Assembly (NCBI RefSeq): GCF_035818615.1
Contig: NZ_JAYKZY010000002.1
Coordinates: 2,730,501 to 2,794,500 of the forward strand
Length of the DNA stretch: 64,000 bases
Direction of reading: 5' to 3'
Source of the DNA: Sphingobium sp. CR2-8
GTDB taxonomy: Bacteria; Pseudomonadota; Alphaproteobacteria; Sphingomonadales; Sphingomonadaceae
Shown here: positions 16,592 through 32,774 of the stretch, piece by piece
How the letters are laid out: each line of letters opens with the position of its first letter
Position numbering within the stretch: the first letter of the stretch is position 1
The notes under the pieces: model-generated
What the model was told of the DNA's origin: nothing
Seen by the model: only the letters and a program-made list of their open reading frames with translations
Database searches by the model: none
Program-made: the position numbers and the translations under genes

Positions 16592-16639
16592 GATGCCCGC
16601 CCGGTGCCGATGCGATCGGCGACGTGCATATAAAGGGCA

Positions 16640-16667
16640 TCCGGTCCCGCGCGAACGCGGGACCGGA
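16640..16667. terminator. Hairpin between convergent LacI-type gene and HU gene
   Basis: A perfect 12-bp stem with a four-base loop (TCCGGTCCCGCG, loop CGAA). On the minus strand it is followed by TGCCCTTTATAT, so it probably terminates the HU transcript; on the plus strand no T tract follows. Confidence 0.65.
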
Positions 16668-16675
16668 CAGTCGCA

Positions 16676-16951
16676 TCAGCCGTTCAGCTGATCCTTGACC
16701 GCCTTGGCAGGCGCGAAGCCGAGCTTCTTGGAAGCCGCGATCTGGATGGTCGCGCCGGTCGCAGGGTTGCGGCCTTCACGGGCGGCGCTTTCCTTGACCT
16801 TGAACTTGCCGAAGCCGTTCACGGACACTTCTTCACCCTTGGCGGCGGCAGCGGCGATCGACGAAAAGACCGTATCGACAGCCTTCTTTGCATCAGCCTT
16901 GGTCAGGCCCAGTTCGGTCGCAACAGCATCTGCGAGGTCGCTATTATTCAT
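16676..16951 (-). CDS. HU-family nucleoid DNA-binding protein
   Basis: It has 91 residues from ATG (MNNSDLADAVATELGLTKAD). The DNA-binding arm signature is FGKFKVKESAAREGRNPATG, followed by the conserved ending KLGFAPAKAVKDQLN. HU bends DNA and compacts the nucleoid; phages and integrases often use it as host factor. A frame-open upstream extension to 17005 lacks family similarity. Confidence 0.93.
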   Translation of the reverse strand: MNNSDLADAVATELGLTKADAKKAVDTVFSSIAAAAAKGEEVSVNGFGKFKVKESAAREGRNPATGATIQIAASKKLGFAPAKAVKDQLNG

Positions 16952-17086
16952 GTCGTGCCTTTCTTGGAGAATTTCCTGACGCATAGCCCCGGTTTGCGAC
17001 CGCATGCAAGACGTTGCGATGTCGCATCGTCAAGAAATGGTCGTAGGCTCTGGACAGGATCGCGCATCGCTCGCTAACGCGCCGCC

Positions 17087-17293
17087 ATGAGCATCGTTGC
17101 AACCATCATGAACTCCGCCACCGGCCAGCCCATTCAGAAGATGACCTTCGGGCGCATGCCCAAGCCTTGGGCCACGTTCAACCTGGAAAGCGGCGAACGC
17201 GTGACCGCCGATCGCGTCCATGTGGGTAAGCCCGCCCCCGGCAAGTTCGTAGCGCCCGTGGAAGTATGGGTCACGCCCAAGGCTGTCGGCTGA
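17087..17293 (+). CDS. Small hypothetical protein
   Basis: It has 68 residues starting MSIVATIMNSATGQPIQK. No family is recognised and no clear ribosome site is visible. It is divergent from HU and convergent with tRNA-Gly. Composition is that of a small beta-rich soluble protein (FNLESGERVTADRV). It is open and coding-like but unproven. Confidence 0.5.
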   Translation: MSIVATIMNSATGQPIQKMTFGRMPKPWATFNLESGERVTADRVHVGKPAPGKFVAPVEVWVTPKAVG

Positions 17294-17341
17294 CCATCGT
17301 TCCGGCGGCGGACGAAAAGCGGTTGCGTTATATGGTAGCGC

Positions 17342-17415
17342 TGGAGCGGGTAGCGGGGATCGAACCCGCATCACAAGCTTGGAAGGCTAGTGCTCTACCA
17401 TTGAGCTATACCCGC
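17342..17415 (-). tRNA. tRNA-Gly(TCC), prophage attachment gene
   Basis: The minus strand reads GCGGGTA (acceptor), D arm GCTC-AATGGTA-GAGC, anticodon loop CTTCCAA with anticodon TCC, T arm GCGGG-TTCGATC-CCCGC, acceptor TACCCGC, discriminator T and an encoded CCA (17342-17344). The anticodon stem has one T-T mismatch. The 5' half (17376-17415) is the phage-shared core, so the complete gene here is a host 3' part joined to a phage-borne 5' part. It lies 27 bases below the integrase stop, on the same strand. Confidence 0.95.
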
Positions 17416-17416
17416 A
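17376..17416. repeat. attL core, 41-bp direct repeat
   Basis: It is identical to 47714-47754 over 41 bases and differs immediately on both sides (17375 A against T; 17417 T against A). It covers the 5' half of tRNA-Gly from the acceptor end to the 3' side of the anticodon stem. It marks the integrase-proximal end of the prophage. Confidence 0.95.
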
Positions 17417-17442: not shown

Positions 17443-18576
17443 CTAGCGTTTTACAGATCGTTTTACCGAAGCCTGTGCAAGACGTTCGCCCAGTGCCACG
17501 ACAATGGCCGCGTCGTCAACATAGTGTGAGCGAATTTCTGACACCTGTTCGGGTGTCCAGCCCATGAGATTGGCGATTTCCTTGTCGGTCAGATTGAGGC
17601 CGGGCGCGGTCATCAGCTTCGTGGCGTAGGTGCCGCGGATATCGTGCAGATGCTTCCAACGCTTTTCGCCGTCGCTGTCGACGTGGTGCAGATCTGTTTC
17701 GCGGATCGCTTTGCCGAATGATCCGGACAGGCCATTGCCAGACCAGGGCGTCCCGTGGCTGGTGACCAGCACAGTTTCCACATCGGGTTTGCGCGGCCGC
17801 GTTTTGAGATCGTCGAGCAGCTGCTGAAGCGTCGGCAGAATCGGCATGACGACTCGGCGCCGCTTCCCCCTGCTCTTCTTGCGTGCGATTCGGGTGATCG
17901 CGACGGCGCCTATCTCTGCCCAGGTCAGGCCGATGAGATCCGCGCGCCGCAATCCCGTCTCGGCCGCCAGCGCAGCGACGTCGCGAAGCGACTGGACAAC
18001 CTTCCTATGGCTATTCCACGTCGCGAAATCCTGGTCCGTCCAGATGATCTCCGCGCGCTGGGCATTGCGGTAAAGCGTCGGGATGCCTGCTGCTATGTTG
18101 ACGGTCACCTGACCGCGCAACCTGGCGAACTCTAAAAGGCGAGCAAGCTGCGCGATCGCGATGTCGGCCGCGCGTGGCGTCTCGGCCATTTCGTCCCGCC
18201 ACTTCACGACCTGGGTCACCATGCGTGGGTTGCACCACAGGCGCAGCGGCACGTCGGGCCAGCGGGCTTCAATCTTGTCCAGCGCCCTGCCCCATGTATC
18301 GCGCGTCGACGCTTGGAGGGCTTTCCATTCGGGACTGGCGCGATAGGCGGTAGCGAGGCCCGCGACTGTGTCTTTGGGAACCGGCTTCGACGCCTCCAGC
18401 GCGGCGGCGATGGCCCTGATATCGGCCTGAGTGATGGTAGGTTTGGGGCCGCCTTCTACCGACCTGATGCGCGGACCGCCCCGCCATGCGTAGATGTAGT
18501 ATCGCACCGGCTTTCCCGCCTTGCGCGATGTGACGATATGGACGCCATCTACCCCAGTTTTCCGCTCTGTAGCCAT
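17443..18576 (-). CDS. int: Tyrosine recombinase (phage integrase)
   Basis: Site-specific recombinase that integrates and, with a directionality factor, excises the element. It has 377 residues: an arm-binding N-terminus with YYIYAW, a core-binding domain (about 65-165) and a catalytic domain. Catalytic residues visible are Arg210 (TGLRRADL), basic residues near 233-238, His311 and Arg314 (HDIRGTYATK), Trp340 in place of the second His (MGWTPEQV), and nucleophile Tyr352 (SHYVDD). All are in place, so it looks functional. It is transcribed toward tRNA-Gly, whose 5' end is 27 bases past its stop. Confidence 0.95.
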   Translation of the reverse strand: MATERKTGVDGVHIVTSRKAGKPVRYYIYAWRGGPRIRSVEGGPKPTITQADIRAIAAALEASKPVPKDTVAGLATAYRASPEWKALQASTRDTWGRALDKIEARWPDVPLRLWCNPRMVTQVVKWRDEMAETPRAADIAIAQLARLLEFARLRGQVTVNIAAGIPTLYRNAQRAEIIWTDQDFATWNSHRKVVQSLRDVAALAAETGLRRADLIGLTWAEIGAVAITRIARKKSRGKRRRVVMPILPTLQQLLDDLKTRPRKPDVETVLVTSHGTPWSGNGLSGSFGKAIRETDLHHVDSDGEKRWKHLHDIRGTYATKLMTAPGLNLTDKEIANLMGWTPEQVSEIRSHYVDDAAIVVALGERLAQASVKRSVKR

Positions 18577-18776: not shown

Positions 18777-19141
18777 GCGGCCTCCGTCGCGTAGGGGGGC
18801 CAGCCCATGGGACGAACCCAGCGATACAGGGCCAAAAGGTCCGCTGTCTTGATGCGGTTCGCCTCGATCGTCTGGTCTAGCTTTGCATCTGCTTTGCAGG
18901 CGGTCGCCCATAGGTTCTTTGCCATGACCGCTCGCTCATCGTCTCTCCAGCGCTGCGGGTGGCGGGCTTGGCAATGCGGATCGCCCGCCGCCAGGCCCGC
19001 CATCTGCTCGATGTTGGACCAAAGCGCGTCGTCATATCGGGCACGATCCGATTGCCCCTGCCCGGCAGCTTCCAAAGCGGCCTTGCGGCGGGCGCGTTCG
19101 TCGCGCGCGATCTGGTGCAGCTGGGCTGGGGTGCGGGTCAT
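18773..19141 (-). CDS. Hypothetical phage protein
   Basis: It has 122 residues from ATG (MTRTPAQLHQIARDERAR). It is strongly charged and helical, with a segment ARYDDALWSNIEQMAG and a C-terminal ALYRWVRPMGWPPY. No family is recognised. It overlaps the following gene by four bases, as in a translationally coupled early operon. Confidence 0.6.
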   Translation of the reverse strand: MTRTPAQLHQIARDERARRKAALEAAGQGQSDRARYDDALWSNIEQMAGLAAGDPHCQARHPQRWRDDERAVMAKNLWATACKADAKLDQTIEANRIKTADLLALYRWVRPMGWPPYATEAA

Positions 19142-19485
19142 TTTTCGACGCTGCCCTGATGGAGGGCGATACCCTTGCCGTGGCCGAAGAGGGCAATGAT
19201 CTTCGTGCGAACGTCTTCCGACCACGCTTCGAAATGCTCGCCGACAGCAACGCCATCAACGCCTCGCGCGATTTCCTCTTGCTCATCTTCTTCGGGCCAG
19301 TGGTCAAGGTCCGAGAATAACGCGGCCTGCCAGGCCTCCCAATGGAAAGGCGACAGGATTTCGTTCAAATCGTCATAGAGTTTTTCGGCAGCGTAGTCGC
19401 GACCCACACCCACCCCGGCATCATCCGTTCGCGCTGGGGTGGCGAGGGCTATCGGGATCGACCGTGTTGCTGATCGTCTCGACAT
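19138..19485 (-). CDS. Hypothetical acidic phage protein
   Basis: It has 115 residues as an open frame; the start is uncertain because it overlaps the upstream gene by 65 bases. It contains TPARTDDAGVG, encoded by a 44-bp sequence that recurs in frame in the MazG-like gene at 45.1 kb. The C-terminal two thirds (SPFHWEAWQAALFSDLDHWP, EEDEQEEIARGVDG) is acidic. No family is recognised. Confidence 0.55.
   Translation of the reverse strand: MSRRSATRSIPIALATPARTDDAGVGVGRDYAAEKLYDDLNEILSPFHWEAWQAALFSDLDHWPEEDEQEEIARGVDGVAVGEHFEAWSEDVRTKIIALFGHGKGIALHQGSVEK
19407..19450. repeat. 44-bp dispersed repeat, copy 1
   Basis: It matches 45121-45164 at 43 of 44 bases (the only difference is base 19443, C against T). 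Both copies lie inside leftward genes in the same reading frame and encode TPARTDDAGVG. Flanking sequence is unrelated. Confidence 0.9.
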
Positions 19486-19864
19486 TGCGCGTTTCGCCGA
19501 ACTGGTCGGGGTCGTTCATATGATTGATCAGCCACTTTTCCGACCAAGCCGTCAAAAACTGCTGCAATTCGGCTTCCGCCACCTTCTGCTGATCTTCTGG
19601 CAGCAGCCATTCGGGATAGTCACCCTCGCCCGAATAATAGTCGCTGGTGTCGCCCAGATGCTCGAAATAGTCGTTGATGATCGTGTCGGCATCCAGCGGC
19701 GGCGGAATCAGCGAGCAGGCTTCCATGACGACGAAATCGCCCTCGCCTTCACCAATATCGCGCATAGCGCCAGCGACAGCATCATCGCGGGTGCTACAAG
19801 GGCCGACAGTCATCCATTCATCGGTGCGGCCTGCCCACCAATTCCAAAGATCCTTGGTCATCAT
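19421..19864 (-). CDS. Hypothetical acidic phage protein
   Basis: It has 147 residues starting MMTKDLWNWWAGRTDEW. It is acidic with Trp/Tyr-rich segments (DYFEHLGDTSDYYSGEGDYP, FLTAWSEKWLINHM). No family is recognised. It reads in the leftward early operon and its 3' end overlaps the next gene by 65 bases, so one of the two boundaries may differ. Confidence 0.6.
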   Translation of the reverse strand: MMTKDLWNWWAGRTDEWMTVGPCSTRDDAVAGAMRDIGEGEGDFVVMEACSLIPPPLDADTIINDYFEHLGDTSDYYSGEGDYPEWLLPEDQQKVAEAELQQFLTAWSEKWLINHMNDPDQFGETRNVETISNTVDPDSPRHPSANG

Positions 19865-19915
19865 ATTTCCCGGCCCCGCTTATTAGGCTGACGGGCCGTT
19901 CCCTTGAGAAACTGG

Positions 19916-20281
19916 TTAGGCGGCGGCCTGCTCAGCCTTCGCTTCGTAGCGATCGCCACAAAACGGGCAGAACGTGTGCGCCGCGATCGAAGGCTTGCTG
20001 CGGCGGTTTTCCCGCTTGCCGGTGTCCTTTCGGAGGATCTGCGTCGTGGTGCGCAAGCTCATTGTCTTGAGGTCGCGTGAGAGGGAGATGGAGGTTTCCA
20101 GCTCCTGCCCGTCACCGGTCAGGATTTCCCCCGCCAGTTTGAGCATATAGGTGCGGCGCGTCTTGCTTTCGCCGCCACCTCTCCCGCTCGCCATGATGGT
20201 TGAGAACTGGCTGGCAGTCGGGATGCCCATGCGGCAGGCGAACCATTCCGGGGTGCCTTGGACGTAATTGTATATCTGCAT
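19916..20281 (-). pseudogene. YqaJ-type exonuclease N-terminus fused to a zinc-ribbon tail
   Basis: Residues 1-56 match the N-terminus of YqaJ/lambda-exonuclease recombinases ([20 protein letters not shown], then [13 protein letters not shown]). The catalytic core that should follow, about 150 residues, is absent. Instead an unrelated tail follows ([20 protein letters not shown], ending [14 protein letters not shown], a CPFC zinc-ribbon half). I read this as two genes fused by an internal deletion near base 20,114. The start lies one base after the stop of the RecT-like remnant, the usual phage recombination-operon order. Confidence 0.65.
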
Positions 20282-20282
20282 G

Positions 20283-20480
20283 TCAGGCGGCCTTGAGAGT
20301 AGCCAGCACAGCGGCGAAGTCCGAAGCCCAAAGGTCTTCGATTTTGGCGATGCTGTAGCTGCATTTGTCGTTCAGGAAGGTGACGAAGCGCGGTTCCGAC
20401 TTGCTCTTTATGTTGAGCATGTCGCGCAACTGCTGAGCCTGTTCGAGGCTTATCGTCTCGATGGCGCTGGCGTCGTTTCC
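20283..20480 (-). pseudogene. C-terminal remnant of a RecT/Bet-like annealing protein
   Basis: The last 65 or so residues of a longer open frame ([40 protein letters not shown]) resemble the helical C-terminal tail common to phage single-strand annealing proteins, which sits just upstream of YqaJ genes. Further upstream the frame runs antisense to a terminase remnant and has no sense. So only the tail remains. Family assignment from so short a piece is tentative. Confidence 0.45.
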
Positions 20481-20513
20481 GTCGTCGTCGCGGGTGGCAA
20501 TAAGCACAAGGGC

Positions 20514-20780
20514 AAGCATCTGCGCGGCTTCAATGTCGAAGATAAGGCGAGCGGGACGGGCTTGATCCAGTCCCTGCGAAAGAAAGCGATTCCTGTCGTC
20601 GGCATCCCCCGCGACCGGGACAAGTACACGCGCGGGCTTGATGCAGCGCCATGGGTGGCAACCGGCATGGTCCATTTGCCAAACGATCACGAATGCAAGG
20701 TAGCTCTGCGCGCCGAATTGCAGATGTTCGACGGACTTGGCACTGGATGGGACGATCAGGTCGACCCGCTGATGGACGCC
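20514..20780 (+). pseudogene. C-terminal remnant of terminase large subunit
   Basis: About 90 residues in the frame beginning at 20514 match the nuclease-domain end of phage large terminases: FNVEDKASGTGLIQSLRKKA, IPVVGIPRDRDKYTRGLDAA, and GTGWDDQVDPLMDAI with the Mg-binding DDQVD. The ATPase domain with Walker motifs is absent, and upstream of the fragment is the opposite-strand RecT-like tail. The junction lies at about 20,480-20,514. The phage cannot package DNA with this gene. Confidence 0.75.
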
Positions 20781-21015
20781 ATTCACCAGCACCTCGCCAT
20801 TTGCATATGCTGCGGTGGTCGACACGGCGAACAATCAGATGCCGTGCAAGATTCAGACGCGATCAGCCACGGCCTTCACCGGCATCTGCAACGCCGCGCA
20901 GAACACAGTGCTTTCCCTGTCGGTCGTAACGACCGGCCTGACGCTCTTGCCGTTCGGCACCACCTGCACCGCTGGCACGGCGGTCATGTGGGTTGCACGG
21001 GAGCCTACTCAGTAA
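20773..21015 (+). pseudogene. Fragment of a structural-region gene before the connector
   Basis: An open frame from 20773 to a TAA at 21013-21015 with coding character in its last 65 residues (NNQMPCKIQTRSATAFTGIC, VLSLSVVTTGLTLLPFGTTC, VMWVAREPTQ). It may be a small intact gene using GTG at 20815, or the tail of a head-region gene cut by the deletion near 20,780. Its position, directly before the connector, suggests a head-region protein. No family is recognised. Confidence 0.45.
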
Positions 21016-21515
21016 TGGCGGCGTACGGCGACGATGCAGGCTTCCAAACCTGGCTTGATGAGCAGGGCTATGTGCTGCCTGGAACGGCGCCGTCGCTTGC
21101 GGTCCTGCGCGCGCGTGGCAGCGCCTACGTCGATGGCTATGAGGCGCAATGGACGGGCTATCGCATTGGCGGCGCGGTGCAGGATCTGGCCTGGCCCCGT
21201 ACTGGCGCGCGCTTCAATTGCGTGCAGGCGATTCCCGACAACATCATTCCTCCCTCGATCATCAATGCTGCATACCGCGCGGCATGGCTAGAAGCTGAGA
21301 CACCAGGCATCCTCATCGGATCGTCGGCAGGGCTTGGCCAGCGCGTGAAGCGTGAGCGGGTCGAGGGCGCTGTTGATGTCGAGTATTTCGATGACGGCAA
21401 GCCCGGCAGCAGTGGCGGCCCTTCGTTCATAGACAGCATGATCGACGGCGCTCTGCGGGCCTTTATCTGCGATAACAGCAAGGGCGCGGCGTTCCTGTGG
21501 ACGCTCGGAAGCTGA
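21015..21515 (+). CDS. DnaT-like head-tail connector protein
   Basis: It has 166 residues from ATG overlapping the upstream TAA. It opens with GDDAGFQTWLDEQGYVLPG then RGSAYVDGY and AWPRTGARF, the pattern of the DnaT-like ssDNA-binding/phage connector family that usually follows the major capsid gene. In phage context it is taken to be a head completion protein rather than a replication factor. It is coupled to the next gene (TGATG). Confidence 0.72.
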   Translation: MAAYGDDAGFQTWLDEQGYVLPGTAPSLAVLRARGSAYVDGYEAQWTGYRIGGAVQDLAWPRTGARFNCVQAIPDNIIPPSIINAAYRAAWLEAETPGILIGSSAGLGQRVKRERVEGAVDVEYFDDGKPGSSGGPSFIDSMIDGALRAFICDNSKGAAFLWTLGS

Positions 21516-21925
21516 TGGCCGACATTTACACCCGCATGCAGGCCACGGCGCGGCGATTGCTAGCCCCAACCGACCAGGGCGGCCTTGGGCAAGGCGAGAT
21601 CGCTATCGTGCGCTATGTCGCGGGTGAAGCGCCGGCTAATCCGTGGGAGCCGCCATCGGCCCCGACGCTTGAACGCATCCCTCTCGACGGCGCGGCGCGC
21701 GGGGTCGGCAAGGAGCTTGTGGGAACGCCGGTTGAGAATGGCGGCCAGATCGTCGCCACAGACCTGCTCGTCATCGTCGCCGTGCCGGAAAGCGGCTACA
21801 ACGCCGATGATTACGAGCCTGCGGATGTGCTGGAAATCGACGGTGCGCCCGTTACCGTCATGTCGGTGAAGAATATCCCAGCGGCAGGCACGCCCTGCGT
21901 CATTCAGTTCGTGGCTCGGCAATGA
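21515..21925 (+). CDS. Probable head-closure/stopper protein
   Basis: It has 136 residues from ATG (MADIYTRMQATARRLLAP). It is a small beta-rich protein with PADVLEIDGAPVTVMSVKNI. Length and place between the DnaT-like connector and the morphogenesis gene suit a head-tail stopper. It overlaps both neighbours by a few bases. The function is inferred from order. Confidence 0.6.
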   Translation: MADIYTRMQATARRLLAPTDQGGLGQGEIAIVRYVAGEAPANPWEPPSAPTLERIPLDGAARGVGKELVGTPVENGGQIVATDLLVIVAVPESGYNADDYEPADVLEIDGAPVTVMSVKNIPAAGTPCVIQFVARQ

Positions 21926-23115
21926 GCGACGACCTCCAAGCCCTGGTCGACCAGCTTGAACCGTTGCTGGCTGCTGTGTTCATTGCGGCAATCGCCACGC
22001 TGCGCGCCGGGATTGATTACCCTCGTCTCCTGATCGCCCTGCGCACCGGTGACATCGATGCAGCGATTGACGCCCTAAACATCGAAAGCGGCGTGTTCAG
22101 CGGCTATGTGCTGGAGCGCCAGGCGGCGTTTGCGAAGGCTGGCGCTGTCGTGTCGGAAGCGGTCACGAAAGATCGGGTGGCATTCTTCCGGCGCGAAACC
22201 CGCGATCCATCTATTCGCGGGCCTGTGCTGGAGCCTGAAGCGCGTGGCCCAGATCGGACGCCACCCCCTGCTCCGCCGTCTCTATCGCTGGACGGCCCGA
22301 CGCCGACGAACATCGTGTTCCGCTTCGATATGCAGAACCCCCGCGCGGAAAACCGTATCCGATCGGAGGCCGCCACCCGTGTCGCTGGCTATGTCGATGA
22401 GCAGGTGGAAACGGCGCGCAAGGTGATCGCGGACGGGTTCAGCCGTGGCGAAGGGCCGCAGACGATCGCAACCACCATCGCCGGGCGCGTCGATCCGAAC
22501 AGCAAGCGCCGACAGGGCGGCATAGTCGGCCTGTCCGATCCCCAGGTGGGCTATGTCGATTCCATGCGCGCCCGCCTGCTGTCCGGTGATCCCGACGAGA
22601 TGATGAAGGTGCTGGGACGCTTCGACAAAGGCGGGAAATGGATAGAAGGCACCGGCATGACCCGCCGCGATCGTCGCTATGACGGCGCGATCAAGCGGGC
22701 AATTGCGGCCATCGCGAAGGGCAAGCCGAACCCACTGACGCGCGACAAGATTTACGAGCTGACGGCTAAATATTCCGACCGGCTGCTGGCCAAGCGCGCC
22801 GACGACATCGCGCGGACGGAAACCGCCCAAGGGGTCATGATGGCGCGCGCCGAAGCGACGAAACAGGCGCTCGACAAGAGCGGCTTGGACGATGCGGCAG
22901 TGGAGAAGATTTGGCGGCACCTTGGCGGCCTGCATCATGCGCGTGATTGGCATCTCGCCATGAACGGCAAGAGCGTCACCGGAATCGACGCCGTGTTCCA
23001 CATGCCCGATGGATCATTGATGCTGCACAGCCATGATCCACAGGGCGGGGCGAAAAACAACGTGGCATGTCGCTGCTCAACTGACTTTGACATTGATTGG
23101 GCCGCTGGCCTGTAG
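21922..23115 (+). CDS. Phage head morphogenesis (Mu gpF-like) protein
   Basis: It has 397 residues. The C-terminal half has the gpF/minor-head signature: DIARTETAQGVMMARAEAT, then WRHLGGLHHARDWHLAMNGK and a closing HSHDPQGGAKNNVACRCSTD with Cys-Arg-Cys. The N-terminus is helical (VDQLEPLLAAVFIAAIATL). In complete phages this minor protein enters the procapsid; here the capsid gene itself is missing, so it probably has no assembly partner in this element. Confidence 0.8.
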   Translation: MSDDLQALVDQLEPLLAAVFIAAIATLRAGIDYPRLLIALRTGDIDAAIDALNIESGVFSGYVLERQAAFAKAGAVVSEAVTKDRVAFFRRETRDPSIRGPVLEPEARGPDRTPPPAPPSLSLDGPTPTNIVFRFDMQNPRAENRIRSEAATRVAGYVDEQVETARKVIADGFSRGEGPQTIATTIAGRVDPNSKRRQGGIVGLSDPQVGYVDSMRARLLSGDPDEMMKVLGRFDKGGKWIEGTGMTRRDRRYDGAIKRAIAAIAKGKPNPLTRDKIYELTAKYSDRLLAKRADDIARTETAQGVMMARAEATKQALDKSGLDDAAVEKIWRHLGGLHHARDWHLAMNGKSVTGIDAVFHMPDGSLMLHSHDPQGGAKNNVACRCSTDFDIDWAAGL

Positions 23116-23128
23116 GAGGAGAACGAAC

Positions 23129-23347
23129 ATGGCTTGCAAGAACTGTAAGAAGATCCGCAGCGCGATCATGCACGGCAAGATGGCTGAGGCAGCCGGCCTC
23201 ACCGTCGAGGCGCTGCGTGAGAAGTTCAGCATCTCCGACCCGTTCGAAAGCACGGATGAAGGACTGCGGACGACGATCGCAATTGATGCGGGCGCGGATC
23301 ACCGCAAGGATGCCGCAAAAGCTGCGAAGCCCACCAAGGCCGAATAA
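23129..23347 (+). CDS. Small hypothetical phage protein
   Basis: It has 72 residues from ATG preceded by AGGAGGA. It has an N-terminal CKNCKKIR, then a helical AEAAGLTVEALREKF segment. Similar small basic CxxC proteins occur near tail genes, but no function is known. It ends directly before the next ATG. Confidence 0.65.
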   Translation: MACKNCKKIRSAIMHGKMAEAAGLTVEALREKFSISDPFESTDEGLRTTIAIDAGADHRKDAAKAAKPTKAE

Positions 23348-23779
23348 ATGGCTGGCTGGCAAGGCGTCGATCCTGCGAAGTGGGCGGGTAATCTGTCCAC
23401 CACCGGATTGACGGCTTTGCTGCGCAACAGCGTCCAGGCGCTTGCTAATGAAGCCGGGAAGACAATTCCCAACGGTGGCCGCGTGCCAGTGAAGACCGGT
23501 AACCTGGCGCGCTCTGTCGTGATTTCTCTGACGCCCCCCACGATCAAGGATGGTGACGCGACGGGGGATGTCACAAGCGCCCTCGCCGTCATGAAGCCCG
23601 GCGACACAATCTATCTGGGCTGGCAGGCGAACTATTCCAGACGCCAGAATAATGGGTTCGCTGGCACCGACAGCTTGGGCAGGACTTACAATCAGGCTGG
23701 CTTTGGATTCGCCGAGGCGACGGCTGTCAAATGGCCTTCCATCGTGCAGGAGCAGGCCATGAAGATGAGGGGCAAATAA
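23348..23779 (+). CDS. Tail completion protein, HK97 gp10-like
   Basis: It has 143 residues. The VPVKTGNLARSVVISL motif (PVxTGNLRxS) is the HK97 gp10/neck protein hallmark, followed by NYSRRQNNG. These proteins join the tail to the connector. It is coupled to the next gene by TAATG. Confidence 0.75.
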   Translation: MAGWQGVDPAKWAGNLSTTGLTALLRNSVQALANEAGKTIPNGGRVPVKTGNLARSVVISLTPPTIKDGDATGDVTSALAVMKPGDTIYLGWQANYSRRQNNGFAGTDSLGRTYNQAGFGFAEATAVKWPSIVQEQAMKMRGK

Positions 23780-24219
23780 TGGCAACCGTTCCGACGATCG
23801 ACACTAGCGACTGGCTGGCCCTCAAGCAGCGCGTCGACACGCTTGCGCTCGACACCGCCATTCCGATCTACGAGCCTGGCGCCGTCTTCACGGCGCCCAA
23901 GGACGCGGCCGGACCTCTCCCCTACATCCTGCTATCGGACGTGACGAACGACCGGGATCGTGGCGGGCGGATTGATCCTTCGCTTCACGAACGCGCCGGC
24001 ACGCTGATGCTCACCCTGCAATGGCCGATCGCCAAGCCCGTCACGCACGCGCGGCTGAAGGAGTTGGGCGGACAGATCGCGGCGCATTTCCCCGCCGACA
24101 CCTGCATGTCATACGGCCGGTCGCGCTTGCGGGTGACGCAGGATAGCGCAGCGCTGGCGGCCTATGTTGATGGCGCATACCGCGTGGTAGTGGTGCGGGT
24201 GTTTTGGTCGAGCATGTAG
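23779..24219 (+). CDS. Tail terminator protein (DUF4128-like)
   Basis: It has 146 residues from the ATG overlapping the upstream stop (MATVPTIDTSDWLALKQRVD). PLPYILLSDVTNDRDRGG and the ending YRVVVVRVFWSSM fit phage tail-terminator proteins that cap the tube. The frame is open back to 23731 but translation from 23779 is preferred because of the TAATG coupling. Confidence 0.7.
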   Translation: MATVPTIDTSDWLALKQRVDTLALDTAIPIYEPGAVFTAPKDAAGPLPYILLSDVTNDRDRGGRIDPSLHERAGTLMLTLQWPIAKPVTHARLKELGGQIAAHFPADTCMSYGRSRLRVTQDSAALAAYVDGAYRVVVVRVFWSSM

Positions 24220-24246
24220 CGCGCGGAATCCGGCTGTGATATGTTC

Positions 24247-24276
24247 GGGTCAGCGGTGTTAGCGCACCGCTGACCC
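24247..24276 (+). other. Perfect 12-bp hairpin after the tail terminator gene
   Basis: GGGTCAGCGGTG, loop TTAGCG, then the exact complement. No U tract follows, so it may slow or partly end transcription, or protect the upstream mRNA end, before three small inserted genes. Confidence 0.6.
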
Positions 24277-24303
24277 TGACCAAAACGCGAAAGGACCGCG
24301 ATC

Positions 24304-25108: not shown

Positions 25109-25840
25109 ATGGGTTTGCAGTCAATTGCAGGGTCGAAAATCTTCATCGGTACGCGGGTGGCGCTGCCCACCGACCTGACCGTGGAACTCGCGGACTTCAC
25201 CCTTCAGGAGCCGGAATGGCTCGAAATCAAGGGATGGACGCAGGCCGGATCGCTGGGGGATACCCGCGAAGCCATCTCGCAGAACTTCATCGACGCCGAT
25301 CGCACGGTCACCATTGGTGGGACGAAGAACGCTGCGGAAATGCAGAACGTTTTCGCGCCGCTGCCGAATGATCCTGGTCAGAAGCGCTTGCGTGAAGCAA
25401 TGGCGGGCTGCTCCAACTATGCGATCAAGGTCGAATGGGGCGCCTCTTGTGTGGCCGAGAGCGCTGTCACGATCAGCGTTGCCTCCCCCGGCGTCATCAC
25501 CTGGCCGGGCGGCCATGGCTTGGAAGCCGGTTCGCCGGTGGTGTTCACTGGCAACGGCGGCACGCTGCCGACCGGTCTGACCGCTGGCACCGTCTACTAC
25601 GTCCGCGAAACCGGCCTCACGCCCACCACCTTCACCGTGTCGGCCACACCGGGCGGCGCTGCCGTTGCGACCACGGCGGCGGGAACGGCAACGTCCATCA
25701 CGGCGACCGCTTCGCCCGTTGGCCAGACCGACCTCTTCTACGCGCTCGCCATGTCGTTCAGCAAGAACGGCGGCGAGGCGAACACGGCCCAAATGCTGAC
25801 CGCCAGCATCAAGCCCAACACCAACATCGTTACCGTTTAA
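25109..25840 (+). CDS. Major tail tube protein
   Basis: It has 243 residues. The N-terminal part (MGLQSIAGSKIFIGTRVALP, then GSLGDTREAISQNFIDADRT) fits siphophage tube subunits that stack into the tail tube. A Gly/Thr-rich insertion around residues 125-215 (GHGLEAGSPVVFTGNGGTLP) looks like an exposed Ig-like or decorating domain. It is followed by the chaperone pair, the classic tube-chaperone-tape order. Confidence 0.82.
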   Translation: MGLQSIAGSKIFIGTRVALPTDLTVELADFTLQEPEWLEIKGWTQAGSLGDTREAISQNFIDADRTVTIGGTKNAAEMQNVFAPLPNDPGQKRLREAMAGCSNYAIKVEWGASCVAESAVTISVASPGVITWPGGHGLEAGSPVVFTGNGGTLPTGLTAGTVYYVRETGLTPTTFTVSATPGGAAVATTAAGTATSITATASPVGQTDLFYALAMSFSKNGGEANTAQMLTASIKPNTNIVTV

Positions 25841-25910: not shown

Positions 25911-26348
25911 ATGGAAATCGGACACGTAAGCAAAAAAGTTGATATGAATGACGGTGAATGGGTCGATGATATCCCGGATCTCGATGGCGTCCGCCTCAAG
26001 GTCCGGTCGACCAAGTTCAAGCCGTTTGAAGTAGCGTCCAGCGCCCTGATCCGCCGTTTCGGCAAGCGGCTTCGGACGGATGAGGGCGTTATCGCGTTCC
26101 GCGCTGCGTCTGGCGGGCCTTTGGCTGACCACATCCTGATCGACTGGGATATGACGAAAGCGGAGGGTTCGATTGCCCTGACGAAGGAGGGCAAGCCCCT
26201 GCCCTATTCTCGCGAGGACGCCCGCTTCGTTCTGACCGTGGACGACGATTACGGGATCGGCCAGATCTACCGCCAAGGCGTGGAATGGGCCGGCGACCGC
26301 GTAGCAGAACAGATCGCCGCGCGCGCGGAGCAAGTGGCGGGAAACTGA
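25911..26348 (+). CDS. Tail assembly chaperone, zero-frame product (gpG-like)
   Basis: It has 145 residues, acidic. DGVRLKVRSTKFKPFEVASS at the start and position between tube and tape-measure genes mark it as the G-type chaperone. The last codons GCG GGA AAC TGA contain the slippery heptamer GGGAAAC, so a fraction of ribosomes should continue in the -1 frame into the next open frame. The chaperone holds the tape measure during tube polymerisation. Confidence 0.78.
   Translation: MEIGHVSKKVDMNDGEWVDDIPDLDGVRLKVRSTKFKPFEVASSALIRRFGKRLRTDEGVIAFRAASGGPLADHILIDWDMTKAEGSIALTKEGKPLPYSREDARFVLTVDDDYGIGQIYRQGVEWAGDRVAEQIAARAEQVAGN
26339..26345 (+). promoter_or_regulatory. Programmed -1 ribosomal frameshift site GGGAAAC
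   Basis: X-XXY-YYZ heptamer in the right phase (G GGA AAC) immediately before the zero-frame TGA at 26346-26348. After a one-base backward slip the next codon is CTG at 26345 and the frame runs on to 26725. Frameshifting at this position is a conserved feature of siphophage tail chaperones. Confidence 0.82.
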
Positions 26349-26725
26349 CCGAAGGGCTGCAATGGACGCTATCCAAGCATGGCGCGTTCATTGCGGCCCG
26401 CAAAAAGGAGGAAGAAGATGGATCGAAAATCCCAGACGATCTTCAGCCTCCCGATATTGAAGAAGGCTTTGAGGGCTGGATTGATGCCTTCATGGACCTT
26501 GGGACCGAACGTCAGATCGGCATGGTGGAGGGGCCGATCCCAGCAAGCGCCATCGCTCGCCACACGCAGGGCTGGCATTACGTCGACGCTCATCTGTTTG
26601 AGATTTGCATGAGGCAGTTGGACAAAATCTATCTCAAGCGCGGTTCGGCCGAAACTTCCGAGCAGCCCCAGGCGTCGGCCCGCGATGCTTTCCGCGCAGC
26701 AACCGCCAATCGCAGGGGTGGATAG
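26345..26725 (+). CDS. Frameshift extension of tail chaperone (T part of gpGT-like)
   Basis: About 126 residues beginning LTEGLQWTLSKHGAFIAARK. No good start codon or ribosome site is present; the frame is open from 26285 but only the part after the slip looks coding. The fusion product would have about 271 residues. The extension contains EGFEGWIDAFMDLGTERQIG and ends in a basic tail; it is expected to bind the tape measure and tube protein. It lies three bases before the tape-measure gene. Confidence 0.75.
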   Translation: MTEGLQWTLSKHGAFIAARKKEEEDGSKIPDDLQPPDIEEGFEGWIDAFMDLGTERQIGMVEGPIPASAIARHTQGWHYVDAHLFEICMRQLDKIYLKRGSAETSEQPQASARDAFRAATANRRGG

Positions 26726-26728
26726 AAT

Positions 26729-29302
26729 ATGGATGTTGCCGCACTCTCGATGAACATCGATAGCAGCAAGGTCGTCACTGCGGCGAACGACCTTGACCGC
26801 TTCTCGGCGTCCTCGGATCGTGCGGCGGCATCGGCCGGCAAGGTCAACTTCGGTAGCCAGGCTGGATCGATCGCTAAAATGGTCGCCTTGGTCCAGTCGA
26901 TCGACACGAAGATGTCAGCGCTGATCGGCACGCTGACGAAGGCGCAGCAGGCGGAGAAGGCGCTGGCTGCTGCCAACGACAACACGGCGTCGAGCATGGC
27001 CAAGGCGGGCGCAGCGGTCGCCGTCGCGGACAGCCATGTCATCGCCTATACTCAGCATCTTGCAGGGCTGGCAGCAGCCCAACGAAACGCCAACACAAAT
27101 GTTTTGGCGTATCAATCTACCCTACAGTCGATCCGCACGCCTCAGGTGCAAGCGGACGCTCACGTCCTCGCTTATCGTGACAGTCTCAATCGCGCCGCCG
27201 ATAGCGCAAAGGTAGCGGCCACAGCCATTAAATTCACGGCTCAAGACACGTTGAACGCAAGCCGCCAGCTCTCGGATATCGGTGTGACGCTGGCAATGGG
27301 CATGAACCCGTTCATGGTCGCGATCCAGCAGGGACCGCAACTGCTCGACATTCTCCAGAACAAGGCGGCAGTCACCGGGCAGACGATCGGGGTAGTGTTC
27401 AGGGCCGCAGGAGCAGCCATTTTCGCCGCCCTGTTGCCACTTCTACCTTTGATTGCTGCACTGACCTTGGCGGCGGCGGGCATCGCAGCCCTCACGGCTC
27501 AGGCAAATGATGATTCCGGCCTCAAAAAATACACGACCGCGATGGGTTATACCAAAGCGGAAGTGGCGAAATTGAACGCCGTGACTGTCACCTTTGGCGA
27601 CACGACGAAGGCGGTTTTCCAAGTCGCCCTCCGATCGGCCGCTGAGGCTATGGGCATCAACACGGCCGACATGGCCAAGACGTGGGAAACATTTCTTGAT
27701 AGGCTGGCGTCGGGTACGCGCGCTACCTTGGCTGGCATTTACGCAGGGCTTGCCGGTACACGCGCATATCTGGCTGAGATTGAGAAGGGTGGCGTTCTCG
27801 GACTAGGCAAGATGATAATCGGGCAAGGCGATCCCGACATCATTAAAAAGACCTACGGCAAAGCCTATGCCGATGGGCAGAAGGCGCTTGATGAAATCGT
27901 GAAGCAGGCGCGGGCGAATGCTCGCACGCGGCAGGACACTATGGCCAAGGCCATGTACGACGCGCCCAAGGCAAAGGGCGGCAAGTCCGATGCTGAAAAA
28001 CTAGCAGACATCATCCGTAACGCCGAAGCTGAGATCAAAGCTGAGCAGGCCAAGGCTGATGCGGTGGGCGTGTCTGCACACGCCGCCGCTGAGCTGGAGC
28101 AGCGCACGAAGCTTCTTAATCAAGTTGAAAAGGCAAAGATCCCGATTACAGCGGCTGTACGCGCCGAACTTGATCGTCTTGCCAAATCTTATGCTGATGT
28201 GAAGATTGCTGCCGACACTGCAGCGGTCATCCAGGGCGTCATCGACGGGTCCGAAAAACAGCGGTCGACACTCAACGATCAGAATAACTTGATCGGCATT
28301 TATGGCGACGAACTGACGCGCGCGCGTATTCAGATGGAGATGTTAACTAAAGCGCAAAACGCATTGCCGAAGGGCGTGATCCTTTCGGTTAAAGATGCCA
28401 ATCGCTTGTCCAATGCTGCATCGAGCGAAGCAGATGACCAAATCCTGTACGACCGCAATACTCGCATGGAAAAAATCCGCAAGGACGCAGCAGATGCCAT
28501 GTACGCGCTCGACCTTGAGAGTAAAGGCCTGGGCCTCACAGGAGCGGCGGCTGAGGCCTATGCCTACAAGGTAGAGCGCTTGAGTGAAGCGCAGCGTGCG
28601 GGCAAGCCACTCTCGACTGAAGAGCTTGCACTTTTGGACCAGAAAGCGGAAAAGTATGGCGAAGTCCGCAATGCCATAGATCGCATGCTTGAAATCGAGA
28701 ATGTGAAGGCTCGCGGCCTGGACAGCCTGAACAACGGCATTGTCGATGTCATTACCGGCGTGGATTCGCTTGGCAACGCTTTCAAGCGAGTGGCGGATCA
28801 GATCATAGCCGATCTTCTGCGGATCGCTGTCCAGCGCTCGATTATCGAGCCGCTCGCCAATTCGCTTTTCCCTGCTGGTAGCAGCACCGGCAATTTGATC
28901 AGCGGCATAGGTAAAGCTTTGGGTTTCGCCAATGGTGGCGCGTTTGGCACTCCGACCCAATTTGCCAACGGCGGCGCTTTCACCAATTCCGTTGTCACAT
29001 CGCCAACGCTATTCCGCTTTGCCAATGGCGCAGCGCTGGGTGAAATGGGCGAGGCTGGTCCCGAAGCCATTATGCCGCTGAAGCGTGGCCCGAACGGATC
29101 GCTTGGCGTTGAGGTGCACGGTGGAGGAAAGCCCTCCATGCGTCTTGGCGACAACTATTTCACGATCAGGGTCGAAGGTGGATTTATGCCAGAGGCCGTC
29201 ATGGCTGTGGCTGATCAGGCAGGCGAGCGCGCTGTGCAGACGGCGCGGCGCAGCTTCCAAGATTGGGCCGCTGAATGGGAAAGTGGCGGATCGGTGGTGT
29301 AA
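26729..29302 (+). CDS. Tail tape measure protein
   Basis: It has 857 residues and sets tail length. It has a helical/coiled N-terminus rich in Ala and Lys, a membrane-active segment (FAALLPLLPLIAALTLAAAG, about residues 232-255), a long coiled middle (EAEIKAEQAKADAVGVSAHA) and the family's C-terminal signature GEAGPEAIMPLKRGPNGSLG. By the usual 1.5 angstrom per residue the tail would be roughly 125-130 nm. It is coupled to the next gene (TAATG). Confidence 0.92.
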   Translation: MDVAALSMNIDSSKVVTAANDLDRFSASSDRAAASAGKVNFGSQAGSIAKMVALVQSIDTKMSALIGTLTKAQQAEKALAAANDNTASSMAKAGAAVAVADSHVIAYTQHLAGLAAAQRNANTNVLAYQSTLQSIRTPQVQADAHVLAYRDSLNRAADSAKVAATAIKFTAQDTLNASRQLSDIGVTLAMGMNPFMVAIQQGPQLLDILQNKAAVTGQTIGVVFRAAGAAIFAALLPLLPLIAALTLAAAGIAALTAQANDDSGLKKYTTAMGYTKAEVAKLNAVTVTFGDTTKAVFQVALRSAAEAMGINTADMAKTWETFLDRLASGTRATLAGIYAGLAGTRAYLAEIEKGGVLGLGKMIIGQGDPDIIKKTYGKAYADGQKALDEIVKQARANARTRQDTMAKAMYDAPKAKGGKSDAEKLADIIRNAEAEIKAEQAKADAVGVSAHAAAELEQRTKLLNQVEKAKIPITAAVRAELDRLAKSYADVKIAADTAAVIQGVIDGSEKQRSTLNDQNNLIGIYGDELTRARIQMEMLTKAQNALPKGVILSVKDANRLSNAASSEADDQILYDRNTRMEKIRKDAADAMYALDLESKGLGLTGAAAEAYAYKVERLSEAQRAGKPLSTEELALLDQKAEKYGEVRNAIDRMLEIENVKARGLDSLNNGIVDVITGVDSLGNAFKRVADQIIADLLRIAVQRSIIEPLANSLFPAGSSTGNLISGIGKALGFANGGAFGTPTQFANGGAFTNSVVTSPTLFRFANGAALGEMGEAGPEAIMPLKRGPNGSLGVEVHGGGKPSMRLGDNYFTIRVEGGFMPEAVMAVADQAGERAVQTARRSFQDWAAEWESGGSVV

Positions 29303-29961
29303 TGAGAATATGCAACTTCCCCACCTTCCGCATCGAGACGCAGCTGTTCCACACGCCTGGTGCTGGCTATGACGGCGGCCTGACATCGGGCGGCGCGCAG
29401 TTCATCACGCCAGAGCCGGGCGGATTCTCTGTGCTGGAAATCGCCCCCGCGCTCATCGACACGGAATGGGACGCCCCGCTGGCGTCGTGGATCATGTCGA
29501 AGATCAGCGGGCAGGTTTTCCGCGTCCGCCTCGCTCCTTCACCCCAGATCGCCTACAGCAAGCGCCGTGGTATGACCGCCGTGCCGTGGGACAATGGGCA
29601 AGCCTGGAGCAATCAGCAGAATTGGGATGGTGACTTCACGGCCCGATTTGCGGCGGCTGGGCTGAAAGGCTCACTGGAAATCAAGATCGACCTTACCGGC
29701 GTTGGTCCGATCGTTGGGCCGGGTCATGTCATTGGACATGACTTCGATTGCTATCTGATCGATGAGATCAGCTATGTCGGTGACGTCGGGACCGCGATCG
29801 TTACCTCGCCGCTCAACCGCGACATATCAGCCGGCGACAATTGCTACCTGCGGCCCTGGTTTACCGGGCGGATCAGCAATGGCGCCGACATCCGCGCCGC
29901 CTACAATTCGATGGGGCATGTGAAGCCCGGTAATATAGTTTTGCAGGAGGCGCGGGTTTAG
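29302..29961 (+). CDS. Probable distal tail protein
   Basis: It has 219 residues from ATG at the tape-measure stop (MRICNFPTFRIETQLFHTPG). No firm family is seen; size and the place directly after the tape measure match distal tail or tip-base proteins. It contains SPLNRDISAGDNCYLRPWF near the end. It was presumably adjacent to the tail gene now at 33,572 before the accessory genes entered. Confidence 0.6.
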   Translation: MRICNFPTFRIETQLFHTPGAGYDGGLTSGGAQFITPEPGGFSVLEIAPALIDTEWDAPLASWIMSKISGQVFRVRLAPSPQIAYSKRRGMTAVPWDNGQAWSNQQNWDGDFTARFAAAGLKGSLEIKIDLTGVGPIVGPGHVIGHDFDCYLIDEISYVGDVGTAIVTSPLNRDISAGDNCYLRPWFTGRISNGADIRAAYNSMGHVKPGNIVLQEARV

Positions 29962-29972
29962 CGCGTCAATAG

Positions 29973-30275
29973 TTATGCAGGCTCTAACTCCCGGCGCTCT
30001 ATAGACATTTGCAGCCCAAGGGCATCCAAGACCTTGATGACGGTATCAAGGGTAGGGTTGCCTTTGTCGCTTAGAGCCTTTTCGAGCGTCTTCCTATGTA
30101 GGCCAGTAGTGCGCGATAGCTCGCTGATGCCCCCATGGGCGCGCGCTACTGCGCCAAGAGCGGCGGCAATGTAACGAGGATCGCCGTCAACGACCGCATC
30201 ATTGAGCAGATCCGCTTCGTCTTCGCGATTGTCTAGGTAGCGCGCCGGATCAAAGGCACGAGTTTCGATAGCCAT
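29973..30275 (-). CDS. Antitoxin, HigA-like addiction-module antidote
   Basis: It has 100 residues from the ATG (MAIETRAFDPARYLDNREDE) with GGAGG five bases upstream; a start four codons earlier is less good. A helix-turn-helix is visible in ISELSRTTGLHRKTLEKALS. It matches the putative addiction-module antidote family. It should bind the toxin and repress the shared promoter. It lies 15 bases after the toxin stop, the toxin-first order of higBA-type pairs. Confidence 0.85.
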   Translation of the reverse strand: MAIETRAFDPARYLDNREDEADLLNDAVVDGDPRYIAAALGAVARAHGGISELSRTTGLHRKTLEKALSDKGNPTLDTVIKVLDALGLQMSIERRELEPA

Positions 30276-30290
30276 ACCAACCTCCATTGG

Positions 30291-30575
30291 TCACAAATCA
30301 GCGGCCAATCGCTTGGCCTTGCTGATATCACGATCTTGGCTGTCCTTGTCTCCCCCGCAGAGAATGACAGCGCCATCACGCACAATATAATAGACGCGGT
30401 AGCTCGGCCCCATATGGAACCGCATTTCTGATACTCCGTCGCCAACCGGCTCAGTATCCCCGAAATGGCCGGTAGCGGCCAAGCGGGTAAGCCTTTTCAC
30501 GATGGCACGACGAGCAACAACGTCACGCAGGCTACCGAGCCAGTCCGAGAATTCGAGAGTTTCAATCACCTGCAT
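30291..30575 (-). CDS. RelE/HigB-type toxin (phage Gp49-like)
   Basis: It has 94 residues from ATG (MQVIETLEFSDWLGSLRDVV); a TTG six codons earlier is in frame. RAIVKRLTRLAATGHFGD, VSEMRFHMGPSYRVYYIV and LCGGDKDSQDRDISKAKRLA are the RelE/ParE-superfamily Gp49 signature with the conserved RxYY and GGDK motifs. It is likely a translation-dependent mRNA endonuclease. The promoter at 30583-30611 would give an almost leaderless mRNA. Confidence 0.87.
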   Translation of the reverse strand: MQVIETLEFSDWLGSLRDVVARRAIVKRLTRLAATGHFGDTEPVGDGVSEMRFHMGPSYRVYYIVRDGAVILCGGDKDSQDRDISKAKRLAADL

Positions 30576-30582
30576 GGATATT

Positions 30583-30611
30583 TTAGTATCCAATGCTCAT
30601 GCGTTTGTCAA
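30583..30611 (-). promoter_or_regulatory. Promoter and operator of the toxin-antitoxin pair
   Basis: On the minus strand a perfect -35 TTGACA (30606-30611) and a -10 TACTAA (30583-30588) are separated by 17 bases. The -10 lies within the palindrome GGATA-CTAAAA-TATCC, a likely operator for the antitoxin. Transcription should start about at the toxin ATG. Confidence 0.7.
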
Positions 30612-30791
30612 GCGAGGGTTGAAAAGCGCAGAACTGATCCGCCCACTAGCCAACCCCCGCCATCAATGGCAACCTCGCCCAATTAAAACTATTGTCACAA
30701 TCGCTGTTGGATCAGGTTGATGTGGACGAATCTCAAGCATCACTCCATCTTATGGAAATCCGTGCAACCAGCGGAGCAACAGGGGCAATTT

Positions 30792-31358
30792 ATGAAAAAA
30801 TATTACGCGCCACTTCTTTTTGGATTTATTCTGTCGGGATGCACCATCACGACGATGGAAGCAAAAATTGACCCACAGCCACAGGTTCAGGCGTCAACAA
30901 TTGGCAACGGCAAGAAAGTTGGGGTCATCGTGGTTGATGAGCGCCCATCGAAAAACTTGGGGAAGCGCTCGTCCATCGGTGGGACCATCGAAATGAACGA
31001 GGATCTGGCGGTCGTCTATCAAACCGCCATCATGAAAGGGCTTTCGGCGAAAGGGTTTTCGCCAGTTGGAGGGGTGTCTCCAGATGGATCGAATCTAAAA
31101 GTCGAACTTCGCGGCCTAAACCAAGTCAGCACCACCGGCTTCTGGACTATGGGGGCGGACATAGACGCGGCAATGAAGGTTGTCGTGACCGGAGGATCAG
31201 CGCCTTACGAACAAATGTACCGGGCGGCTTCATCCAACCGCACCATCGTTGTATCCGGCGCCAAAGCACTGAACAAGAAAATGAATGCCGTGGTCAATGA
31301 CCAGATCGAAGCGATGTTTAATGATCAGGCGCTTTTGACGGCGCTCGCAGCAAAGTAG
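30792..31358 (+). CDS. YajG-like outer-membrane lipoprotein
   Basis: It has 188 residues from ATG (MKKYYAPLLFGFILSGCTIT) with lipobox LSGC, so it is a lipoprotein. The body (KVGVIVVDERPSKNLGKRSS, NLKVELRGLNQVST) resembles the YajG family. It has lower GC than the phage around it, its own terminator, and sits inside the tail operon beside a toxin-antitoxin pair, so it looks like lysogenic-conversion cargo. A surface role such as exclusion of other phages is possible but not shown. Confidence 0.72.
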   Translation: MKKYYAPLLFGFILSGCTITTMEAKIDPQPQVQASTIGNGKKVGVIVVDERPSKNLGKRSSIGGTIEMNEDLAVVYQTAIMKGLSAKGFSPVGGVSPDGSNLKVELRGLNQVSTTGFWTMGADIDAAMKVVVTGGSAPYEQMYRAASSNRTIVVSGAKALNKKMNAVVNDQIEAMFNDQALLTALAAK

Positions 31359-31371
31359 GAATCCTGATGCG

Positions 31372-31400
31372 GGGGTGGGTGCAATGCACCTACCCCTTTT
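31372..31400 (+). terminator. Rho-independent terminator of lipoprotein gene
   Basis: GGGGTGGGTGC-AAT-GCACCTACCCC (one mismatch) followed by TTTT, 13 bases after the lipoprotein stop. Confidence 0.8.
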
Positions 31401-31404
31401 GCCA

Positions 31405-31629
31405 TCAATGATTGGGTGATGTCAGATAGGATTCTATGTCCGAAAGGCTGGCCTCATAGCCAAAATGGCCCATGCCAAAATTCGCCCCGCCCGTTTGATG
31501 GTCTATTAGGGCGTAGCATCCGTAATCCAGCGCATTAGGGTCGCGTCGTCGCGATTTGACCAATCGCATTCCTTGACGATCCGCCATTCGGCGAAGGCGG
31601 TTCTCCCTTATCTTTTCGTTCTCGCTCAT
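31405..31629 (-). CDS. Small hypothetical protein of mobile elements
   Basis: It has 74 residues from ATG (MSENEKIRENRLRRMADRQG). RLRRMADRQGMRLVKSRRRD and LDYGCYALID form a pattern seen in many phage and plasmid small proteins with no known role. It stands alone and reads leftward toward the lipoprotein terminator. Confidence 0.7.
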   Translation of the reverse strand: MSENEKIRENRLRRMADRQGMRLVKSRRRDPNALDYGCYALIDHQTGGANFGMGHFGYEASLSDIESYLTSPNH

Positions 31630-31756
31630 GCTGGCACCTATGCTGGAAATGATGCTTGACGTGATGCCAGAAGGTGTTCTACAAGTCAATGCAGGCTAGA
31701 GAGGGAATCCTACCTCCCTCCCCAGCCCTAACCTCAACGATCCATAGGAGATCGAA

Positions 31757-31966
31757 ATGGCTCATGCGCCCATACACTTGGCGATACCCTCTGTCACGCC
31801 TGCCTTTCTTCTCGCGGCGATGCTGGACACCTGTCGCACGTCGGAAACGATCGAGGTCTGGAACCAAGACTTCATCGAGAACATGCACCTCATCAGCTAT
31901 GCCGATCGCATGGATTTGGTCGCCAAGTCGGCCGCCCGTCGTGGTCAGATCGGAGGTGTGCAATGA
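31757..31966 (+). CDS. Small hypothetical protein
   Basis: It has 69 residues (MAHAPIHLAIPSVTPAFLLA), preceded by AGGAGA. It overlaps the following Tat-signal gene by four bases. No family is recognised. Confidence 0.6.
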   Translation: MAHAPIHLAIPSVTPAFLLAAMLDTCRTSETIEVWNQDFIENMHLISYADRMDLVAKSAARRGQIGGVQ

Positions 31967-32760: not shown

Positions 32761-32774
32761 TCCGAGAAAGGCAT

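Follow-up and report, generated by a model that had tools for sequence, protein, structure and literature searches.

We describe here a 30.4 kb prophage in the genome of Sphingobium sp. CR2-8, which is quite likely to be a young defective siphoprophage that has been internally deleted and is probably silent and decaying. Between its integrase arm and its first connector gene, ~0.9 kb of gene fragments with three junctions stands in place of ~20 kb in the head-bearing relative G524. The first-pass annotation had suggested that the genes kept beyond this point could form an F-type tailocin. Because the adjoining dead terminase fragment is conserved equally well, open tail genes without a head do not alone signal such a particle.

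Results

The window, i.e. the whole stretch of 64,000 nucleotides analyzed here (G000:C2:2730501-2794500, where G000 is our own genome), belongs to a genome of 4.51 Mb in three contigs, the contig itself being 3.53 Mb long. Within the window, the prophage extends from 17,376 to 47,754 and is flanked by exact 41-bp direct repeats, the left attachment repeat at 17376-17416 and the right one at 47714-47754. The left repeat covers the 5' half of a tRNA-Gly gene (17342-17415, minus strand), and an open frame of 377 aa (17443-18576, minus strand; PF00589, phrog_1) encodes a tyrosine integrase. The integrase is 42% identical to its counterpart in L047, a locus that is part of the head-bearing record G524 from the same phage group. 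The right flank of the prophage has a match, often a partial one, in all 94 genus genomes searched (our own included), and in all seven sister loci examined, a single tRNA copy is followed by the right flank after ~94-104 bases. Five of these seven have the left flank directly beside the tRNA. With the right flank close behind the tRNA (7/7) and the left flank next to it (5/7), the sister loci represent the empty integration site. The element is bounded by attachment repeats at a tRNA gene and is absent from sister genomes, as a defective prophage should be. Just left of the tRNA-Gly gene, ~745 bp (16592-17336) is missing in four sister loci, where the left flank stops at 16591 and the tRNA follows directly; in a fifth locus (L081), the left flank stops at 16575.

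The three junctions are all present in the assembled sequence of the window, and the pieces retained between them measure ~60-100 residues each. Alignment with relatives, as had been recommended for placing the deletion ends, maps them to ~20,110, ~20,500, and ~20,784. The first lies inside a 121-aa ORF (19916-20281, minus strand; phrog_149, phrog_7033) consisting of residues 1 to ~57 of YqaJ followed by the last ~65 residues of a separate zinc-ribbon protein of 78-80 aa. Its best matches are a 205-aa protein of PF09588, which we take to be YqaJ (93%, covering 47% of the fusion), and one of 80 aa (81%, covering 54%). Among the best 120 of 594 homologues, with candidates limited in length to about 67-212 aa, coverage is at most 69% for anything besides the query itself: PF09588 proteins of ~150-212 aa cover 46-69% of the fusion and two homologues of 78-80 aa cover 54%, a comparison that does not give the half covered. 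In L047, the zinc-ribbon gene stands alone (3489-3731, minus strand) and aligns to residues 45-121 of the fusion. Homologue coverage and L047 therefore bear out the fusion, which had been noted at about 20,114, but not the idea that its tail is foreign, as a free-standing gene in a head-bearing relative indicates that these phages carry the zinc ribbon natively and that the fusion marks a deletion.

The neighboring fragment (20283 to ~20495, minus strand) is assigned, weakly, to the C-terminus of an ERF-like single-strand annealing protein. Its single match, itself weak, is to the ERF C-terminus of the Bradyrhizobium phage ppBjS10J-1 (31% over 67 aa, E 4e-3), in which the ERF gene immediately precedes YqaJ. 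Based upon this match and gene order, the fragment is better called ERF-like than RecT-like; the original description as the C-terminal piece of a recombinase stands, whereas its assignment to RecT does not. On the opposite strand, a C-terminal fragment of the large terminase, TerL (20502-20783, plus strand; phrog_38, PF17289), is 68-75% identical in alignment to its counterparts in L004, L008, and L009. Nucleotide comparison puts the limits of TerL homology at ~20,502 and ~20,783, so that the change from ERF-like to TerL sequence falls within the interval of ~20,480-20,514 first proposed for it. This fragment cannot work as a terminase. The last junction, which had been placed at about 20,780, is likewise confirmed by the end of TerL homology, and is followed by a fragment (~20785-21015, plus strand) for which homology searches recovered no recognizable relative. 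Since its stop codon overlaps the ATG of the connector gene, this fragment is presumably the end of a lost gene.

The scale of the loss is apparent from comparison with head-bearing sphingomonad siphophages and prophages, which include those of Sphingopyxis indica DS15 (L002/L007) and Sphingomonas sp. UBA978 (L001), the IMG/VR elements L008 and L009, and G267. Here, "head-bearing" means that a head module is present and says nothing of the completeness of a virus record. These phages share with our element the gene order connector, closure, gpF, neck, terminator, tube, tape measure, and tail proteins, at 54-84% protein identity per gene (36-58% for the tape measure). Ahead of the connector, however, they have a module of portal, decoration, and capsid genes that is missing from our element. 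From the zinc-ribbon gene to the connector, the distance is 21.7 kb in G524 (3,489 to 25,152) versus 1.1 kb in the window, from which we estimate that roughly 20-20.5 kb is missing relative to G524. All 16 relatives whose sequence extends 4.5 kb or more beyond the same connector on its upstream side (L001, L050-L060, L063-L065, and G267) retain a head module. By homology to L008 proteins, whose labels were taken from PHROG, 15 of the 16 keep portal, phrog_760 protein, decoration protein, and capsid; in L056, the portal is only partly present, at the contig end. An L008-type TerL was matched in 7 of the 16. One candidate for a headless relative, L060, was rejected, as it carries a different major head protein family (phrog_264).

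The relatives were drawn from genomes via the gpF-like protein (2 loci), IMG/VR via the same protein (10 loci), a connector alignment (20 loci), and G267, with the named relatives of the gpF-like protein being one Sphingomonas and one Sphingopyxis genome. Left out of the count were L061 and L062, in which the upstream sequence is too short (L062 also has identities equal to those of L001), L006, L010, L066, and L067 from the connector alignment, as well as L005 and L011 from the IMG/VR search with the gpF-like protein, in which <0.5 kb precedes gpF. No separate count was given to L002-L004, L007-L009, and L012, which are further excerpts of elements in the tally; L003 is the contig of L062. 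Wherever contigs reach, the gpF-like gene lies downstream of the connector and closure genes in every relative compared. Its position outside the deleted block means that the retention of the gpF-like and connector genes in our element is not odd.

The missing genes were also sought elsewhere in the genome. L008 capsid and portal queries have no match anywhere in it, and the L008 TerL query matches only the window fragment (residues 386-491 of 503). The same capsid query matched seven of eight records, relatives included, the sole miss being our own genome; one Sphingopyxis phage accounts for two of the seven, G520 and G522. In the same tool, the portal query was run without a positive control, yet it matches relatives in the gene-by-gene comparison. 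The PF03864 profile found nothing in our genome. Taken together, the junctions, the head modules of relatives, and these searches uphold the earlier view that at least three deletions removed the early region, TerS, most of TerL, portal, and capsid, and with these essential genes gone the element again has the makeup of a defective prophage. Relocation of the window's head genes was considered and rejected, as the sole PF05065 capsid found belongs to a gene transfer agent-like cluster (G000:C2:2172000-2187000; loci L072 and L073). This cluster encodes an HK97-type capsid (C2:2182112-2182975), a PF04860 portal, an S78 protease, and an Rcc01698_C tip protein. Gene transfer agents of the RcGTA type are, like our element, host-resident and tail-bearing phage remnants, but they keep capsid and packaging genes. 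Our element retains neither capsid nor portal nor a whole terminase and is therefore not of this type.

The retained operon, all on the plus strand, opens with the head-tail connector Ad1 (21015-21515; phrog_477 and alignment), head closure Hc1 (21497-21925; phrog_161), a gpF-like head morphogenesis protein (21922-23115; phrog_3517), a neck or tail completion protein (23348-23779; phrog_169), and the tail terminator (23731-24219; phrog_179). These are followed by the major tail (tube) protein (25109-25840; phrog_158), tail assembly chaperones 1 (25911-26348; phrog_313) and 2 (26285-26725; phrog_3817), and the tape measure protein (26729-29302; phrog_1716). The best conserved of the tail genes (29275-29961) has no family hit and probably has a distal-tail role, judging from its position; its identity is 77-84% in most relatives and 62% in L059 and G267. 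Beyond it lie a putative tail tip protein (33572-34222; phrog_2048, weak; 70-78% in relatives), a tail tip region protein (34219-34629; DUF6950/phrog_2134), a tail tip or fiber protein (34604-36751; phrog_5616), and a tail fiber-like protein of 973 aa with a GDSL-lipase-like domain (36979-39900; PF13472). The last is common to relatives only over its first ~60 residues, and one might guess that its domain is perhaps a deacylase acting on a receptor polysaccharide. The lysis genes comprise a holin-like membrane protein (39897-40343), an endolysin (40340-40924; phrog_181, 63% to L041), and a spanin-like small protein with an N-terminal membrane helix (40921-41181). Between two tail genes, a cargo slot (29962-33571) contains three genes without a match in the fetched relatives, which carry other cargo or none: a lipoprotein-like gene (30717-31358; PF03923), an ORF without an assigned family (31674-32534), and a Rha-family regulator (32775-33575).

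That the tail and lysis genes are open holds for the tail genes and the endolysin, which align full length wherever they have homologues, except for the tape measure in some relatives and the fiber, and there is no stop or frameshift in the tail genes aligned with relatives. The holin- and spanin-like ORFs are open as well, but they have no match in the fetched relatives and are labeled by hydropathy only. Whether this openness reflects selection was addressed by scoring, for each gene, the rate at which the window differs at positions on which all other copies agree. The TerL fragment departs at 1 of 61 invariant positions, and the corresponding figures for the eight other copies are 0 to 6 of 60-66. 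Among the retained genes, departures number 2/137 for gpF, 0/51 for Neck1, 1/42 for the terminator, 1/85 for the tube, 1/81 for the tail protein at 29275, and 2/103 for the tip protein at 33572. For Ad1, the window value (4/50) is the highest of 16, and for Hc1 (2/37), it is exceeded by 1 of 15. Relaxed constraint on the connectors was nonetheless rejected: the window departs at 6/87 connector positions versus 7/499 in the other genes, and since L054 shows a similar excess (5/86 versus 5/497), we conclude nothing from it. Decay since the deletions is thus not visible even in the dead TerL piece, which means that selection cannot be deduced from the tail genes being open. The TerL test is of little power, as we estimate that a few percent of neutral divergence is compatible with it.

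The truncated arrangement was not encountered again. In the 93 other genus genomes, there is no long DNA match to 19900-24300: against all 94 (our own included), nine others match, eight by 27-48 query bases and G015 by 257 bp of TerL at 78%. The latter locus, L019 (G015:C1:1097074-1097330), places a TerL of the same group in another genus member. Exact 30-31-mers spanning the junctions (20093-20123, 20487-20516, and 20766-20796) and an exact 34-mer of the pre-connector fragment (20785-20818), just right of the last junction, each have 0 occurrences in viral contigs. The tail group itself is rare. A connector profile run against 396 genomes of the order recovered our own genome and G608, which, judging by its contig and coordinates set beside those of G520, probably duplicates the S. 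indica genome, while the tail protein at 29275-29961 was found among 397 family genomes in our own and the head-bearing G267 only. Among 100 relatives, the gpF-like protein was found in our own genome, with weak partial matches in three others (E 1.6e-4 to 7.5e-4). PADLOC returned no match for any of 10 proteins tested.

With regard to regulation, no repressor was recognized among the element's ORFs given to family scans, which took in only some of the short ones, the only regulator seen being the Rha-family protein of the cargo slot. The exact LexA-like motif GTTC-N7-GTTC occurs four times in the window (39484, 42794, 43751, and 53989) against 1.35 expected, little above chance, with 4 of 100 shuffles reaching that number; the scan placed none upstream of the tail operon. 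Consequently, SOS control of the tail operon, as once supposed, is unconfirmed. One of the motifs (42794-42808) lies ~50 bp upstream of a right-arm gene for SRAP, an SOS response associated peptidase (42857-43504; PF02586), and this motif may be the source of the SOS-control reading. No promoter-like site was found in 19800-21600, a weak test with 0.6 expected by chance.

Discussion

As we envision it, a temperate siphophage of the sphingomonad phage group would have integrated at tRNA-Gly, after which at least three internal deletions would have made the prophage defective by removing its early region, TerS, most of TerL, and the portal, decoration, and capsid genes. The remnant should be unable to package DNA, and transcription of its tail operon is most probably absent, or else weak and driven from outside, because the region for repressor, replication, and activator functions is gone. 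In keeping with a defective prophage, the integrase frame is open and both attachment repeats are kept. A survey covering 1384 prophages reports that those classed as incomplete tend to lose terminase, portal, and lysis genes, with integrase, transposase, and tail fiber genes being enriched among them (PMC7744054). Our element fits this pattern except for its still-open endolysin. The deletions are probably recent, and the tail genes would then owe their open frames to the short time available for decay rather than to any known selection. Speaking against decay is that, with the tail genes and endolysin all open, pure neutrality would demand very young deletions. The first-pass suggestion that the remnant may be simply decaying has gained support.

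F-pyocins and monocins resemble the element in having non-contractile tail genes and lysis genes but no head genes; they are domesticated loci with their own regulators and are not known to carry an integrase. F-type tailocins are described as flexible, non-contractile, SOS-induced tails (PMC8718954). It is conceivable, though unlikely, that our element is an incipient tailocin of this type, in which tail and lysis genes are expressed under stress, headless flexible tails kill relatives, and the loss of the head and packaging genes brought it into being. The recognized tail genes, the endolysin, and the two membrane lysis-like ORFs are open, the non-contractile siphophage-type tail set is complete as judged against relatives of the same group, and no portal or capsid of the relatives' type was found in the genome. 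There is also an alphaproteobacterial precedent, as the report on rhizoviticin of Allorhizobium vitis describes a prophage-derived F-type tailocin without head genes, encoded with flexible-tail and lysis genes beside a tRNA gene (PMC10811719). The likeness is one of gene content and setting. However, that report describes an early region that encodes a LexA-family repressor as well as replication genes, five early-region genes being needed for transcription of the tail and lysis genes (PMC10811719), whereas the early region of our element is gone, which by analogy argues against expression of its tail genes. Rhizoviticin is further described there as having a truncated integrase, no detected attachment repeats, and representation in eight further strains, whereas our element has its integrase and repeats whole and no second strain is known, the truncated arrangement being in no other record searched among the 93 genus genomes and viral contigs. 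Also at odds with a tailocin are the head-associated connectors and gpF-like gene that are nonetheless present, the lack of a recognized repressor among scanned ORFs or of an exact LexA-like motif upstream of the tail operon, and, as a weak test, the lack of a promoter-like site before it. The proposed recipe is borne out in its headless tail and lysis gene set and unsupported in its SOS control. Equally doubtful, in our estimation, is a tailocin caught at birth, its head, packaging, and control genes lost in a few steps, with its tail and lysis operon whole and repressor-free and headless tails made at a low constitutive or host-controlled level. A title-level search found no paper on a sphingomonad tailocin, which does not establish absence.

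An assembly artefact, in which an intact prophage or two prophages had been collapsed at this place, seems very improbable. The genome is indeed in 3 contigs, but the contig concerned is 3.53 Mb long, three separate junctions with small retained fragments would in our judgment be an unusual pattern of collapse, and searches of the rest of the assembly, whose completeness is rated at 99.84%, turned up none of the capsid, portal, and full TerL sought. There is slightly less reason still to suppose a helper-dependent mobile element that excises by its own integrase and attachment sites, to be transported by either a helper phage or the host gene transfer agent. Such an element would make sense of the whole integrase frame and 41-bp repeats, and a possible carrier exists in the host's gene transfer agent-like cluster, with its HK97-type capsid near C2:2.17-2.19 Mb. 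Yet no small terminase, packaging, or capsid-remodeling gene was recognized among the scanned ORFs, and it is tail rather than packaging functions that were kept.

If the young defective siphoprophage that we favor makes no tails, it offers a clean snapshot of prophage decay, with three junctions bearing fragments and 16 head-bearing relatives for reference. If tails are made, it would demonstrate how small a number of deletions suffices to make a weapon of a prophage and provide a young comparison for rhizoviticin. Were it truly caught at birth, it would be the second path, after rhizoviticin, by which F-type tailocins arise in alphaproteobacteria.

A separate observation concerns the two arms of the prophage, which share a 44-bp direct repeat of 98% identity (19407-19450 and 45121-45164). 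The repeat joins a left-arm ORF (19138-19485) with a right-arm ORF of 497 aa (44555-46048), both of which encode the peptide TPARTDDAGVG, and it is possibly a trace of exchange between the prophage arms.
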